This document shows positions 16,877 to 25,727 of a stretch of DNA of 38,737 nucleotides, piece after piece. The stretch's first letter is position 1. Every line of letters starts with the position of its first letter. Origin of the DNA: a virus. Below the pieces are notes generated by a model. The model did not search any database. It had not been told where the DNA came from and saw nothing but the letters and a program-made list of their open reading frames with translations. The position numbers were made by a program, and so were the translations under genes. The DNA lies in the IMG/VR virus record IMGVR_UViG_3300021599_001462, positions 1 to 38,737 of that record, one strand, 5' to 3'.

Positions 16877-17983
16877 ATGATTTTTAAAAACTTTGAATCT
16901 ACAGACATAGTAGCAGGAAGAATCAATACAGTTTCTTCTGGATTTTGGGTTGACGGCAATTATGCAGTAACACAATCAACTTTTACAACATCATCCACTC
17001 AAGTGGTATTGACTGGTTCAAACCAATATGATGTTCAAAATGGATTGTATTATTACAATGTATATTACCAAAACCAACCACATTTTTCAATAACATATGG
17101 TGATTATTATGGTTCTGGTTCATCTATTACCGATGCAACATCATTATATATTCGTCCAACACAAGCAATTTACAATCAATATAAGAATGTATTGTTGACA
17201 CCGGACGATACATTTTTTAATTTTAAATCAGGTAATTACACTGTAGCTACAGCCACCGATTCAACTACATCTGTTACAGGATCTGGTATAGTAGTATTGA
17301 ATTTCTCCGCTGATAAATATAAAGATCGTGTAGATGAAGGACAAATTGAATTTAGTATTAGTGGTGCCAATGGTCAATTTACATTTATCGATGATTCTTC
17401 TGTAGTTAAGAAACAATTTGACGTTTATAATATCATTAGCGGTAGTGTAAATGACGGTGTTCCATCTGCATATTCAAGTGGTGGAGTAATTACATATAAT
17501 TCCATTGGATTATTTTATCCAAAAACAGGTACAGTTGTATTAAATGCAGGTGCAATTAGTTCTTCTGTTGGTGTATCTTTGACTGGATCATTCGCAAGTG
17601 TTGCTGATCAAACCAATACATACGCATTGAATCAAAGAACTATGTTCCAAGCAATTACTAAATGCACAACAAAGACATTTAAAGTAAGAAAATCCGAATA
17701 TTTACCATCTGCTCAATATTTCGTAAGAGTAAAGAATCAAGATTTTAATTATACAAACAATCCAACATTTATTGCAAATGGTACTACTGATAGTTTAAAT
17801 GGTACAGTATTAGCAAGAGGTGCGATCAAGATTAGTGATTTCGTAAATAATCCTACGACTTATATTACTACTGTTGGTTTATATGATAGTGATAATGAAC
17901 TTGTAGCAGTTGCAAAATTGAGTCAACCAACACAAAAAACTTTTGATAGTGAATTGTTGATTAGAGTAAGACTTGATTTTTAA
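16877..17983 (+). CDS. Virion structural protein with shared C-terminal tail domain
   Basis: A 368-residue protein. The N-terminus (MIFKNFESTDIVAGRINTVS, then FWVDGNYAVTQSTFTTSS) leads into a beta-rich body with FSITYGDYYGSGSS and TQAIYNQYKNVLL. The last 90 residues contain FNYTNNPTF and YITTVGLYDSDNELVAVAKL, ending IRVRLDF. That last block recurs, with an insert, at the end of the protein coded at 18616-20931, so the two share a module. It is probably a tail or baseplate-peripheral protein. Two structural genes of the same style follow. Confidence 0.7.
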   Translation: MIFKNFESTDIVAGRINTVSSGFWVDGNYAVTQSTFTTSSTQVVLTGSNQYDVQNGLYYYNVYYQNQPHFSITYGDYYGSGSSITDATSLYIRPTQAIYNQYKNVLLTPDDTFFNFKSGNYTVATATDSTTSVTGSGIVVLNFSADKYKDRVDEGQIEFSISGANGQFTFIDDSSVVKKQFDVYNIISGSVNDGVPSAYSSGGVITYNSIGLFYPKTGTVVLNAGAISSSVGVSLTGSFASVADQTNTYALNQRTMFQAITKCTTKTFKVRKSEYLPSAQYFVRVKNQDFNYTNNPTFIANGTTDSLNGTVLARGAIKISDFVNNPTTYITTVGLYDSDNELVAVAKLSQPTQKTFDSELLIRVRLDF

Positions 17984-17995
17984 ACTAATGGATAC

Positions 17996-18619
17996 ATGAT
18001 TAAAAGTCTAAATAGAGATGATGTCCAAGTTACCCCATTTGTTGCTAAGAAACTCTGGAATCCTACAAATATTGAAGCTACGGATTTGATATTATGGATG
18101 TCTGGATCATTAAGTGGATCGATATCTCATATTTATATTGATTATGGTGACGGTACAAGTTTGCCTACAACAAATAGTTATTGTAATTTAGCGTTACAAC
18201 AACAAAGTGATGATTTTGTTCAATATCATCGTGGTTTAAACATTACAGGCACATTTTTCCCGGTAGGAAATCAATATTATAATTCGGCATCCAATCCAAC
18301 TAATACTGATGGTACTTATATGCGAATGGTATATAATACCAATAAACAATTATTTTACAACACATATAATAATCCAACTCAATTATGGGGTGTAGAAAAT
18401 TTCAATTTGGATACTACATATAGACTCTTGACAGATGTAATGGATGTATTCACAATTCCAACAATTAATTTCGGAGAAAAAATTTCTCCATATAGTGTAA
18501 CAATAATTGACGATCAAGATGATGCCAATTATGTAATTGTAGATGATGGAAATGAAAATTTAATACTTAGTGGAAGTTATTTTTCTACTTATCAAGAAAT
18601 AGAATTCACTGATATATGA
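17996..18619 (+). CDS. Virion structural protein, unknown
   Basis: A 207-residue protein beginning MIKSLNRDDVQVTPFVAKKL. It is aromatic- and Asn-rich (GLNITGTFFPVGNQYYN, GTYMRMVYNTNKQLFYNTYN), compatible with a beta-rich virion protein. Its stop overlaps the following ATG by four bases (18616-18619), which couples it to the propeller protein. No known domain is recognised. Its placement in an unbroken run of structural genes argues for a tail accessory role. Confidence 0.7.
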   Translation: MIKSLNRDDVQVTPFVAKKLWNPTNIEATDLILWMSGSLSGSISHIYIDYGDGTSLPTTNSYCNLALQQQSDDFVQYHRGLNITGTFFPVGNQYYNSASNPTNTDGTYMRMVYNTNKQLFYNTYNNPTQLWGVENFNLDTTYRLLTDVMDVFTIPTINFGEKISPYSVTIIDDQDDANYVIVDDGNENLILSGSYFSTYQEIEFTDI

Positions 18620-20931
18620 CCGATCCAATTTATAAATTAAAAACAGGATATTCAATTGCTGCTGACGGTGATTATGTAGCAGTTGGAAATCCTACATCTT
18701 TTTTATCCGGATCATTCGTATTAAATAATAAAGGATCGGTTGAAGTATTTAAATATTCTAAAACAACAGATGTATACGATCCCAATTTTATATTTTATAA
18801 ATACATAAATCCGGATGATTTTCCAGGATATTTGTCTGCGGATACCAGTAGTGTAGACACTACATATATTAATGCAGATACATCATCTGTTCCTATTTTA
18901 GGATTGAACATAGAAATTGATTTAGGTGGATGGAATCCTGTTATTTATGATGATTCTTATGGCTTATCTGTAGATGTATCCGGATCAATAGTAGTAATTG
19001 GAAATCCATATTATAGATTTTCATTGATTAACGGTTCTATAGTTTATACAGGTTCTTGTGTTGATATATACGATTTATCTGATTATTCAAGTAGTTATGT
19101 ATCTGGAACGGTTTATTATCCAAAATATAGTATTACAAATTCATTTGACAATCTAGAATATTCTACATTTGGTGAATCGGTTTCAATTTTTGAAAACAAA
19201 TTAGTAGTTGGATCAAGTAAAAATAATGCGGCTTATATATATACACAATCTCTTGGTGTATGGAACCATTATCAAACATTATCTCCTGGTGGATTACCTG
19301 CGGATTATTATTATGGTAGTGTAGTTAAGATTGATCCGAGTGGATCAAATAGAATAGTAGTTGGTAATAAATCAACAGGCAGTGCAGTTTTTGTATACGA
19401 ATTAAATACATCTACAAATCAATGGGTGGAAAATGATAGATTGGATCAAGACAGAAATATTACCGGTTCATTAAATTTCATTGATACCAAACCATATTTT
19501 CCTGGCAGTCAACCAAGCGGAAGTAATTATGGTAATTCGGTATCAATCTATGGAGATACAATTATGGTAGGTTCTCCAAATGACATGTATTATTATGAAT
19601 GGAGTGGTTCTACAGTTCTACGAAATAGAGGTGCAGTTTATTTTTGGAAAAAGTGTTCGGATGCAACTGATTGGTTTTTATTAGAAAAATCATTTGGAGA
19701 TGATAATATTTTAGAATCAAATAATTTAGGATATTCCGTTGACATTTACAAAGGCAATGCGATTGCTACCAGTACAAAAGATATTAGTCAATTTAGTTCT
19801 AGTTATATTAAAAATACAATTAATAAAAGATTTGATTGCAACCCAAATGACAATGTAATTGATACTTTAGGACAAATTGTTTACTATACATCATCACTAT
19901 CTACTTCACTATGGGAAGTAAAATCTGTAGTTACTAAAAAGAAAAAATATGGTTATCCATACACAACATTTGGATATAGTACTGCAATTACAGATAATAT
20001 AATATCAATTGGTTCCCCATTATTCTTGGTAAACCCAAATGAAATGACATCTTCCGTATATGATACCATAAATGGTTATTCATATATTTATAATTTTAAT
20101 GATCTAGTCACCAATTATCATATTGGAAATGTATTTTATAGAGATGGTAAGATTATTTTGTCAAATAGTGGTTCTATTTTTGATAATTTATTAAAAGATC
20201 GTTCTAATCCATTACAATCTAAATATGACATTGAATATAAGAGCAATGTTAAACTATATGAAAAACAAGTATTATGTAGAATTGAATCTGGAGAATTTAA
20301 CTATAGTACAAATCCTACATCATTAGTTCCAAATACATTTGATTTTGATATTGATGGTAATAAATATTTTGATTTTACCGACCTAGATTTGATATTAAAA
20401 TATATTAACTATCAAGTAAATGGTTCATATAATTGGTGGGATTATATGACATTTACAAATGAAGAACAATCACTATTTAATCTTTATTCTGTAGAATATA
20501 ACATTTCATCTAGTTATACAACCAATTATACTTCATTATTGTCATCAAACTATTATGATTTTGATATTGATGGTAATAATAAAGTTAATTTGAATGATAT
20601 GTACATACTGTGGAAGTATTTCAATGATAATTTGAATCAAACCGATATATTCAAGTATATAGAACCGAAGTCTATTAGAAAAACTGTACAAGAAATTGTA
20701 AGTTATATTGAACAAAAAACTGGTAAATTTGGTGGTAAGAGTATAAAAGAAGAATTTTTTGGATTTAATTATAGTTCTTCAATTGACCCAACTGGTTCTT
20801 ATTTAGCTCCATATATAACAACAGTAGGGCTTTATAGTGGTGCAGATTTGGTTGCGGTTGCTAAATTGGGTATGCCAATTAAAAATACTGGTGAATTACC
20901 ACTAAATATTTTTGTAAAATGGGATATTTAA
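18616..20931 (+). CDS. Beta-propeller adhesin-like tail protein with dockerin-like pair
   Basis: A 771-residue protein. About seven blade-like repeats of the FG-GAP/integrin-alpha kind are visible, near residues 11, 115, 185, 232, 305, 371 and 452: GYSIAADGDYVAVGNP, YGLSVDVSGSIVVIGNP, FGESVSIFENKLVVGS, YGNSVSIYGDTIMVGSP, FGYSTAITDNIISIGSP and weaker copies. Residues 576-591 and 648-663 carry two EF-hand-like calcium loops with dockerin spacing (DIDGNKYFDFTD and DIDGNNKVNLND), each followed by a helix LILKYI or ILWKYF. The C-terminus (YITTVGLYSGADLVAVAKLG) repeats the end of the 16877 gene product. It looks like a surface-exposed adhesion or assembly protein; the ligand is unknown. Confidence 0.72.
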   Translation: MTDPIYKLKTGYSIAADGDYVAVGNPTSFLSGSFVLNNKGSVEVFKYSKTTDVYDPNFIFYKYINPDDFPGYLSADTSSVDTTYINADTSSVPILGLNIEIDLGGWNPVIYDDSYGLSVDVSGSIVVIGNPYYRFSLINGSIVYTGSCVDIYDLSDYSSSYVSGTVYYPKYSITNSFDNLEYSTFGESVSIFENKLVVGSSKNNAAYIYTQSLGVWNHYQTLSPGGLPADYYYGSVVKIDPSGSNRIVVGNKSTGSAVFVYELNTSTNQWVENDRLDQDRNITGSLNFIDTKPYFPGSQPSGSNYGNSVSIYGDTIMVGSPNDMYYYEWSGSTVLRNRGAVYFWKKCSDATDWFLLEKSFGDDNILESNNLGYSVDIYKGNAIATSTKDISQFSSSYIKNTINKRFDCNPNDNVIDTLGQIVYYTSSLSTSLWEVKSVVTKKKKYGYPYTTFGYSTAITDNIISIGSPLFLVNPNEMTSSVYDTINGYSYIYNFNDLVTNYHIGNVFYRDGKIILSNSGSIFDNLLKDRSNPLQSKYDIEYKSNVKLYEKQVLCRIESGEFNYSTNPTSLVPNTFDFDIDGNKYFDFTDLDLILKYINYQVNGSYNWWDYMTFTNEEQSLFNLYSVEYNISSSYTTNYTSLLSSNYYDFDIDGNNKVNLNDMYILWKYFNDNLNQTDIFKYIEPKSIRKTVQEIVSYIEQKTGKFGGKSIKEEFFGFNYSSSIDPTGSYLAPYITTVGLYSGADLVAVAKLGMPIKNTGELPLNIFVKWDI
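20341..20625 (+). other. Dockerin type I-like duplicated calcium-binding module
   Basis: Within the propeller protein. Loop 1 begins at 20341 and loop 2 at 20557, 72 codons apart. Both begin with the residues DFDIDGN and keep Asp/Asn at loop positions 1, 3, 5, 9 and 12, as in cellulosome dockerins. It interrupts the C-terminal module shared with the 16877 product. Confidence 0.6.
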
Positions 20932-20959: not shown

Positions 20960-21256
20960 ATGCCAACACCAGTAAACAGAGAATCTTTAAACAAGAGTCT
21001 AGAACAAAGATATCAATCTCAAAGTTCAGGAGGTGCATTTAATGCTAAAGATATCAATACCAAACCAGATTCTATAACAACTGGTCCAAATCCTTCTGCA
21101 AAGGGTCAACAATTTACAATTGATAAAGGTGGATTTAGAGTAAAACAACCAATTGGATTGTCAGATTTAGCGGATGTTCCAGATAGAAAAAATAGTACAT
21201 CTAAAGAATTATCATCATTGGTAAAGGGTTTTAATAATAAAAAATATAAAGGATAA
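20960..21256 (+). CDS. Small hydrophilic protein, unknown
   Basis: A 98-residue protein, polar and probably poorly folded: MPTPVNRESLNKSLEQRYQS, then GGAFNAKDINTKPDSITTGP, and a C-terminus SLVKGFNNKKYKG. It has no cysteine and no hydrophobic core. It stands between the adhesin block and the DNA-metabolism island. Similar small proteins in phage structural clusters may be head or tail decoration or scaffolding parts, but nothing here proves it. Confidence 0.65.
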   Translation: MPTPVNRESLNKSLEQRYQSQSSGGAFNAKDINTKPDSITTGPNPSAKGQQFTIDKGGFRVKQPIGLSDLADVPDRKNSTSKELSSLVKGFNNKKYKG

Positions 21257-23423: not shown

Positions 23424-25727
23424 ATGGCAAAATATCTTAAATCAGATATAGAAAAATTCAAGAATGTATTTCACATTGCAGATATTCATTTGCGTCTTAC
23501 AAAGAGACATGATGAATACAATCAAGTATTTGAAAGATTGTATAAAGCAGTAGAAAAGACACCTGCGGAAACTGTAGTTACCGTATTGGGAGATGTTTTG
23601 CATTCAAAGAGCGATCTTTCACCAGAATGTGTAAAGATTACAACTGAATTTCTACAAAACCTAGCAGATAGAAGACCTACAGTATTGATTGCGGGTAATC
23701 ATGATGCTACATTAGCTAATAAAAATAGATTAGATAGTTTGAGTCCAATTGTTGACGCAATTAATCATAAAAACTTATTTTATCTAAAGGATTCTGGACT
23801 TTATATCTTAGGAGATATTCTATTTAATCATTATAGTGTCTTTGACGAACCAGATAAGTATATTAAAGCGAAGGATATTCCCAAGGTTTATTTAAACGAA
23901 ACTCGTTATAAAATTGCTTTATTTCACGGACCAGTAAATAATGCAATTACAGATGTAGGATATAAAGTTGCAAGTAGAACCATCACAAATCAAATCTTTG
24001 ATGGACATGACATTGTATTGTTAGGTGATATTCACAGACATCAAGTTTTAAATCAATCCGAACCAATTATTGTATATGTAGGTTCATTGATTCAACAGAA
24101 TCATGGAGAAGAATTAAAAGGACATGGTTTTGTATTCTGGGATTTGAAGACTAAAGTATTTAAACACTTTGAAATTCCAAATGATTACGGTTTTTATACC
24201 GCAGAAATTAACAAAGGTAAGTTGACTACTGATATATCTGATATGCCTAAGAAGGCAAGATTGAGATTGAAGTGTTTTGAAAGTGTTGCTACTGAAGTTA
24301 AATCTGTATTATCACATATTCGTGAAAAATCTGATGTTACTGAAGTAACTTATGTTCGTGTAGATTCACCTAATACATCATCTAATAATATTATTGACAA
24401 CAGTAATTTTAATTTGACTGATGTATCTGATGTGGATTACCAAAATAAGTTAATCACTGACTATCTTAATAATAAGAATGTAAGTCCTACAAAAGACACA
24501 CTTGAAAAGATTTATAAGATAAATAAAGATTTAAATGCATCTTTGGAAAAAGAATCTATCGTTAGAAATATTAGATGGAAACCTAAGAAGTTTGAATTTG
24601 ACAATATGTTTAGTTATGGTGAAGACAATGTTATTGACTTTACCAAGATGCATAATGTAGTTGGATTATTTGCTAATAATGCTGCGGGTAAATCAAGTGT
24701 ATTATCAGCATTATCTTTTTGTATTTTTGATAAATGTGATAGAGCGTTCAAAGCATCTCACATTCTTAATACACAAAAGATGACATTCCGTTGCAAGTTT
24801 AACTTTGAAGTTAACGGTGTAGATTTCTTCATTGAAAGAAAAGGACATGCGGATAAAAAGGGAAATGTCAAAGTAGATGTAAAGTTCTGGAAAGAAGAAG
24901 GTGGTAAAGTTGTAGAACTTAATGGTGAAGCTCGTAGAAGTACTAATGATATCATTCGTGATTATGTTGGTACATATGACGACTTTATTTTAACTGTCTT
25001 GAGCATCCAAAACAATAAGGTTGGTTCATTCGTAGATATGGGACAAACAGAAAGAAAAGATCTGTTGGCCCAATTCATGGGACTAACTATATTTGACAGT
25101 TTGTATAACGATGCGTCTGATAAGACTAAAGAAATCAATTCGTTGTTAAAGAATTTCAAGAACAATGATTATACTCAGAAGTTGTTGAATTTAAATGCCG
25201 ACATAGAAAACTTTTCTGGTTCACTTAGAAATGAAAATTCTAATTTAGAAAAACTATCTAATCAAAGAGATTCTGAAAATGATAGATTATTAGATGAAAC
25301 CAAAAAACTAATTAATGTTAACGGTAATATTATTGATATTGTTTCTCTTGAATCAAAAAAAGTTTCATTAGAAAATTCTATATCAACACAATCTTCCAGT
25401 TTAAATTCATATAAGTCCCAGTTGTTATCTGTTGAATCAACATATAAGGAATATGATGAAATTATAAAGAATTATGATAATGATGATATTACAACTAAGT
25501 ATGAATCATTTAAAGAACTAGAAACATCTTTAAGTCAAAAAGAACAGTTTATTGAAAAGAAGAAGATTGTTGTAACATCCAAATTACAAAAACTAAAGAA
25601 ATTGGAAGAACATAAGTATGATCCAAATTGTACTTTTTGTACAACCAATGTATTCGTTAAAGATGCAATTAAAACAAGAGAAGAACTTGATAAAAGATCA
25701 TTGGAAAGAATACAACGATATTCATAA
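23424..25727 (+). CDS. Mre11-Rad50 fusion (gp47-gp46), N-terminal part, frameshifted
   Basis: A 767-residue frame. Residues 1 to about 340 are a Mre11/SbcD-type phosphoesterase: VFHIADIHLRL, VLGDVLH, IAGNHDA, LFHGPV, LLGDIHRHQ. From about residue 378 a Rad50/SbcC ATPase begins: WKPKKFEFDNMFSYGEDNVI, Walker A-like FANNAAGKSS (about 415-425), Q-loop LTVLSIQNNKVGSF, a coiled coil, and the zinc hook DPNCTFCTTN (about 733-742). The frame stops at 25727, shortly after the hook. The second coiled coil and Walker B half continue in another frame from about 25696, so the gene is interrupted by a one-base shift. T4 has these two activities in separate genes 47 and 46; they process DNA ends for recombination-dependent replication. 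Confidence 0.88.
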   Translation: MAKYLKSDIEKFKNVFHIADIHLRLTKRHDEYNQVFERLYKAVEKTPAETVVTVLGDVLHSKSDLSPECVKITTEFLQNLADRRPTVLIAGNHDATLANKNRLDSLSPIVDAINHKNLFYLKDSGLYILGDILFNHYSVFDEPDKYIKAKDIPKVYLNETRYKIALFHGPVNNAITDVGYKVASRTITNQIFDGHDIVLLGDIHRHQVLNQSEPIIVYVGSLIQQNHGEELKGHGFVFWDLKTKVFKHFEIPNDYGFYTAEINKGKLTTDISDMPKKARLRLKCFESVATEVKSVLSHIREKSDVTEVTYVRVDSPNTSSNNIIDNSNFNLTDVSDVDYQNKLITDYLNNKNVSPTKDTLEKIYKINKDLNASLEKESIVRNIRWKPKKFEFDNMFSYGEDNVIDFTKMHNVVGLFANNAAGKSSVLSALSFCIFDKCDRAFKASHILNTQKMTFRCKFNFEVNGVDFFIERKGHADKKGNVKVDVKFWKEEGGKVVELNGEARRSTNDIIRDYVGTYDDFILTVLSIQNNKVGSFVDMGQTERKDLLAQFMGLTIFDSLYNDASDKTKEINSLLKNFKNNDYTQKLLNLNADIENFSGSLRNENSNLEKLSNQRDSENDRLLDETKKLINVNGNIIDIVSLESKKVSLENSISTQSSSLNSYKSQLLSVESTYKEYDEIIKNYDNDDITTKYESFKELETSLSQKEQFIEKKKIVVTSKLQKLKKLEEHKYDPNCTFCTTNVFVKDAIKTREELDKRSLERIQRYS

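Follow-up and report, generated by a model that had tools for sequence, protein, structure and literature searches.

The 38,737-nucleotide stretch of viral DNA analysed here (the window; IMG/VR record IMGVR_UViG_3300021599_001462) encodes a 771-aa protein in which a predicted seven-bladed propeller precedes a conserved phage module, and this module appears to hold a dockerin-like calcium domain as an insertion. We read the protein as the larger of two chains that together would form a tail host-recognition protein, the propeller being its head and the calcium-stabilised insert clamping its tail-side module, and give this reading a probability of about one half. We consider it more likely that a dockerin-like calcium domain was grafted into a common tail scaffold of phages, with a propeller head and a divided gene alongside, than that the protein carries a dockerin in search of a cohesin; the most likely role of the domain is to reinforce or connect parts of the tail, not to hold on to the host. 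The parts of the locus are as follows.

16877 to 17983, + strand: 368-aa paralog with the same C-terminal module, without insert (identity, alignment).
17996 to 18619, + strand: 207-aa protein, putative N-half of the same ancestral tail protein (profile matches, alignment).
18616 to 20931, + strand: propeller gene, ORF of 771 aa, with the propeller head and the C-terminal tail module carrying the dockerin-like insert.
18616 to 20052, + strand: residues 1–479, predicted seven-bladed FG-GAP/integrin-like propeller at the head socket, 'site A' (Pfam FG-GAP_2, model, fold matches).
20053 to 20319, + strand: residues 480–568, first part of the conserved C-terminal module, GNVFY ... EFNxSTNPT (alignments).
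20320 to 20787, + strand: residues 569–724, predicted dockerin/EF-hand-like helical insert at 'site B' (relatives, Dockerin_1, model).
20347 to 20382, + strand: residues 578–589, putative calcium loop 1, DIDGNKYFDFTD (first Asp in 34 of 38 inserts).
20563 to 20598, + strand: residues 650–661, putative calcium loop 2, DIDGNNKVNLND (Asp at positions 1 and 12 in 38 of 38).
20788 to 20928, + strand: residues 725–771, second part of the conserved C-terminal module, TGSYLAPYITTVGLY ... LVAVAKL (immuto match, alignment).

The open reading frame at 18616–20931 is confirmed as real and encodes 771 aa; its start overlaps the stop of the 207-aa gene as ATGA. A scan for promoters and terminators returned a number of sites not above that in shuffled sequences.

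The original prediction had proposed a seven-blade FG-GAP/integrin-alpha-like propeller, and both profile and predicted fold agree with it. Pfam FG-GAP_2 matches the 771-aa protein above its cut-off (E 5.2e-14, 52.6 bits versus 23), and seven FG-GAP-like repeats can be read by eye in the protein sequence; in a 10-sequence alignment, the motif glycine is invariant in six of these repeats (G116, G186, G234, G306, G372 and G453) and the first repeat is shortened in three relatives (L017–L019). The structure prediction suggested as a check, an AlphaFold2 model built on a 10-sequence alignment with a low mean pLDDT of 51.6 overall, yields a consistent propeller over residues 5–479 at moderate confidence. 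Its top PDB matches in Foldseek are integrin alpha headpieces (8oxz, E 1e-10), and VIA-align pairs residues 7–478 with a WD40 protein at Z 27.7 (288 residues aligned, 2.7 Å). A search for relatives of the propeller on plasmids found none. Two relatives carry further sequence around it: one (L258:2871-7406) has an N-terminal extension of about 400 residues ahead of the propeller, with trypsin-type-protease-like motifs by eye and no Pfam match, and in another (L264:4971-9837), spread over three ORFs, leucine-rich repeats (a Pfam match) and a stretch that looks FN3-like by eye set the propeller apart from the dockerin-bearing module, which there sits in a later ORF than the propeller and retains the insert.

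Residues 480–771 form a C-terminal module common in environmental phages, with 447 distinct ORFs carrying both of its conserved blocks among 355 fetched loci and the window. The calcium pair had been described as embedded in the protein; it is, and its host is this module. In the 771-aa protein, about 150 additional residues with two loops (residues 569–724) separate EFNxxxNPS from PYITTxGLYxxxELVAVxKL, and in alignments the two blocks adjoin closely in the proteins of the phages immuto, Mel-JY01 and RM378. Judging from these comparisons, the calcium domain is an insertion inside a widespread phage module. Site B holds 60 residues or fewer, with no loop, in 400 of the 447 modules and a long insert with at least one calcium loop in 43, every propeller ORF with both module blocks retaining the insert; among 200 modules from a smaller set of loci, 174 were short and 26 long. 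The figures apply to the sampled relatives: of 345, 521 and 597 that were confirmed, each module scan retained the 80 best, so that rarer insert types were possibly missed. The remaining four modules (L355:2362-3534, L311:1565-2716, L344:2632-3567 and L325:2299-3525) have 74–76 residues at site B without calcium loops and share a DxTGSxL motif; they are single ORFs holding both halves and possibly represent an intermediate state.

The C-terminal 46 residues are 51% identical to a hypothetical protein of Flavobacterium phage immuto, proteins of both immuto and Microcystis phage Mel-JY01 can be aligned over the whole module, and Rhodothermus phage RM378 is reached through the 368-aa paralog, itself 56% identical to the 771-aa protein over residues 732–770. 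The module most likely attaches the protein to the tail or baseplate, a role suggested by its position and by a weak match to Phage_tail_fib (PF12571; the N-terminus of the P2 H-type tail-collar fibre) in two of nine module members (best E 0.11) and, below the cut-off, in the paralog (12.6 bits versus 23). Homology to P2 H was set aside as a route to this role, the Pfam lead being weak and the module profile giving no useful match in the PDB. The module parts have low model confidence; in BFVD, pieces resembled LamG-bearing phage proteins, none at E ≤ 0.001. The genes upstream of the propeller gene match baseplate wedge families, which we take to be gp6- and gp25-like; a tail role is therefore supported, in line with the tail-protein context assumed originally.

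Two DxDxN...D loops lie at residues 578–589 and 650–661. At least two such loops occur in 0.045% of 20,000 shuffles of the 771-aa protein, and no loop of this type is present in the other 30 window ORFs tested. In an alignment of 38 inserts (36 of them distinct), no row lacks the Asp residues at positions 1 and 12 of loop 2, W607 and W666 are likewise unchanged throughout, and the first Asp of loop 1 is present in 34; four inserts (L126, L256, L258 and L259) have lost loop 1 by a clean deletion. It is also missing from L139, an ORF cut at its end and not among the 38. Given its absence from 4 of 38 inserts, two bound ions are not essential. The pair had been credited with dockerin spacing. Both loops are indeed present and the spacing within each is dockerin-like, but they start 72 residues apart, and 72–84 apart in relatives retaining both (a range that excludes four rows at 69–70, which lack loop 1), as against 32–36 in solved dockerins (alignments; 36 in 5nrk and 4fl4, 32 in 1daq).

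Type I dockerins have two calcium loops with ligands at positions 1, 3, 5, 9 and 12, each followed by a helix. The insert resembles them (PF00404; 1daq, 2vn6, 8x39/8x3a) in having two loops that carry acidic or amide residues at these positions and in the helix that follows, with loop 1 missing in 4 of 38; it differs in a loop distance of 72–84 rather than about 32–36, in being sited in a phage module, in the dispensability of loop 1 and in that no cohesin was found. Pfam Dockerin_1 matches 37 of the 38 inserts at E ≤ 1 (best 1.5e-7) and none of nine module-only controls. In the window it scores 13.8 bits with the whole protein and 18.8 bits with the insert alone, against a cut-off of 22.9, with a half-match at 20563–20643 over loop 2; when both halves are summed, 6 of 26 records exceed the cut-off. 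A profile of the 38 inserts reaches 26 PDB sequences at E ≤ 1, by name 21 cellulosomal, four EF-hand and one fatty acid synthase subunit. The insert is likewise similar to EF-hand proteins (EF-hand_6, Cdc31, centrin): EF-hand_6 matches 27 of 38 inserts at E ≤ 1 (best 3.8e-5; 11.2 bits for the window insert, cut-off 25), the alignment with Cdc31 spans both loops in one stretch, and in the model a helix precedes loop 2. It is unlike them in that no insert exceeds a curated EF-hand cut-off among the matches listed.

A second AlphaFold model, of residues 480–771 with 31 sequences, is helical and confident over residues 580–699 (10-residue block means of 87–96), with helices at 587–602 and 659–669 as well as the one ahead of loop 2. 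Foldseek returned no match to the insert model at E ≤ 0.001; with VIA, 14 of 70 re-aligned chains score Z 2 or more, and every one of the 10 entries it lists is a dockerin, with a weak best Z of 4.3. From sequence and model taken together we therefore call the insert 'dockerin-like' and not a dockerin. The dockerin-like pair of the original prediction thus becomes a dockerin-like calcium domain that is not canonical in its spacing. A cellular donor of the insert was sought and none was found: a scan of genome contigs gave 55 pattern matches and no relative, and the insert had no match among phage records at E ≤ 5.

By alignment, the 207-aa protein upstream and the propeller gene product appear to derive from the two halves of one ancestral protein. 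A profile of it and its close homologues matched 133 distinct ORFs. Forty are in insert-bearing loci, and none of these contains the C-terminal module; outside such loci, N-half and module form one ORF in 93 of 93 cases. By pattern, the module is C-terminal in 88 of these single ORFs, the other five having a variant module (L107) or a module inside a longer ORF (L057, L058, L061 and L226). The N-half stops shortly past DDGxGNL, the motif that shortly precedes GNVxY in aligned single-ORF relatives. LamG lies mid-ORF in Mel-JY01 and in six of eight further relatives scanned, and from the sequences we place it at the same point as the propeller, site A. The gene would therewith be split exactly at the head socket in this clade, and we infer that the split form is the derived one. 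At one locus (L253:1710-4952), MBG (4.8e-48) and YDG domains are joined to the N-half in a single gene; such domains are common in Bacteroidota adhesins, and the fusion hints at Bacteroidota as the host phylum. In six insert-bearing loci (L133, L262, L264, L268, L275 and L276) the N-half gene occurs twice in the vicinity of the propeller gene, and some copies are extended at the C-terminus.

In the trees of gene 16233 (25 versus 58, support 0.863) and of the primase gene 22472 (27 versus 63, support 0.996), all insert-bearing loci group together as one clade. Split, propeller and insert all follow this clade, so these traits are statistically inseparable, and the association of split with insert may be an accident. 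Gene 17996 is found in 23 of 24 insert-bearing loci versus 2 of 17 others, and gene 20960 in 22 of 24 versus 0 of 17. Such co-occurrence says little because the RuvC-like gene 21280 likewise tracks the insert and the insert-bearing loci are a single clade; on these grounds the two clade-specific neighbours were rejected as docking partners. Gene 20960 (20960–21256), directly downstream of the propeller gene, encodes a 98-aa protein with no Pfam or PHROG match.

Sequence divergence differs along the protein. Compared with L017, L018 and L019, the propeller is 43–65% identical over residues 1–228, 80–92% over 229–365 and 58–65% over 366–479, whereas the insert is 85–91% and the module parts are 91–97% identical. 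Since parts of the propeller diverge while insert and module are conserved, contact with the host is probably made by the propeller, and the dockerin-like domain is probably turned towards the virion, where it would act as a calcium-stabilised clamp. All parts are under purifying selection (pN/pS 0.05–0.22; 10 sequences compared in 45 non-independent pairs); the value is lowest for loop 2 (0.048), 0.221 for loop 1 and 0.163 for the insert, versus 0.078–0.095 for the module parts. The host-recognition device proposed originally thus finds backing in the propeller, in its faster divergence and in the LamG lectins at the same position in relatives, but not in the calcium pair: docking of the pair to a host surface is left without support by an insert that is conserved like the scaffold and does not change along with the head.

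We propose that one ancestral protein would have combined the N-half with a socket for a head (site A) and with the C-terminal module, by which it would most likely be anchored to the tail or baseplate. Within the present clade of uncultured, presumably myovirus-like phages, a seven-bladed propeller would fill the socket, with the gene divided there and the 207-aa protein as the N-half, and a dockerin/EF-hand-like helical domain would have been inserted into a loop at the surface of the module (site B). The propeller would contact the host receptor. Calcium, chiefly at loop 2, would fold and stiffen the insert, which inside the virion would pack onto the module, the N-half chain or an adjacent subunit of the tail and thereby clamp the split, enlarged protein, cohesin binding playing no part. 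The insert may more specifically be a cohesin-free, calcium-dependent staple, derived from a dockerin/EF-hand domain, that joins the split receptor-binding halves or neighbouring tail subunits; we put this forward tentatively, and if it were true, calcium could govern how the tail is assembled or when it is ready to recognise a host.

A functional alternative is that the pair works as a dockerin and binds a cohesin-like domain, on the host surface in adhesion or on another phage tail protein in assembly. The near-universal Dockerin_1 matches, including those above the cut-off with summed halves, the mostly cellulosomal names among the PDB sequences reached and the dockerins listed by VIA would all fit. 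Yet Pfam Cohesin has no match at E ≤ 1 in 41 clade records (26 and 15, contigs of 365 and 279 kb included), which are possibly fragments and in which a diverged cohesin could escape Pfam; control genomes do match Cohesin, and the search therefore works. This leaves the phage cohesin-like partner of the original prediction without a candidate in those records, and canonical cohesin–dockerin pairing was rejected as the main reading on this result, the loop distance and a conservation pattern in which the insert behaves like scaffold and the head varies. With the weak fold match and the loss of loop 1 in a subclade also against it, a working dockerin is improbable.

The insert could instead be a mere spacer, a tolerated helical domain that fills a loop, with calcium as a leftover folding aid and no joining role. 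The varying length of site B in relatives, including the four loop-free ORFs of intermediate length, the dispensable loop 1 and an insert pN/pS slightly above that of the module parts are what such a domain would give; the constancy of loop 2, W607 and W666 in all 38 inserts and the retention of a loop in all 43 long ones are not, and we regard a spacer as rather unlikely. A different objection concerns the head, which might be an enzyme, a depolymerase or sialidase-like tailspike stabilised by the calcium domain, in place of a binding head. Propeller endosialidases do exist in phage tails (PMC4901313), and a changing glycan substrate would also fit the faster divergence of the head. The matches obtained, however, are to FG-GAP/integrin and WD40 propellers, no enzyme family in Pfam matches the 771-aa protein, and the relatives carry lectin-type LamG mid-ORF, which makes an enzyme improbable.

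The two-chain reading can be set beside known systems. The hypothetical tail proteins of immuto and Mel-JY01 share the N-half, the C-terminal module and the gene neighbourhood with the window phage; they differ in being single ORFs without a propeller and in a short site B without calcium loops. The seven-bladed phiKZ gp131C and the five-bladed phi11 RBP are phage tail proteins thought to bind receptors; they have a propeller, as does the window protein, and as described have neither a dockerin-like domain nor a split gene (PMC4901313). The phage lysin LysGH15 has an EF-hand-like calcium site, so that a calcium loop of EF-hand/dockerin type recurs in a phage protein as in the insert; it differs in having a single loop in an enzyme domain and no tail protein insert (PMC4022735). 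LamG domains have been linked to jumbo-phage tail fibres (PMC7824862). In the accessible portions of the open-licence literature searched, which included PMC10743442, PMC4022735, PMC4901313, PMC7824862 and PMC12619734, we found no account of a phage tail protein containing a dockerin.

Our analysis offers a plain map of a widespread, unannotated phage tail protein as a fixed scaffold with two sockets, of which one would take exchangeable heads (LamG or a propeller) and the other would have gained a calcium domain. It also offers a testable explanation for calcium-dependent adsorption in such phages and, if true, would mean that a dockerin-like domain is used outside the cohesin system and that a tail gene has been divided exactly at its head socket.

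Comparison with contigs L002 and L014 shows that, elsewhere in the window, about 76 and 158 bases are absent at 25690 and 26600, with a 911-base block between them; these gaps could be small deletions or an assembly effect.
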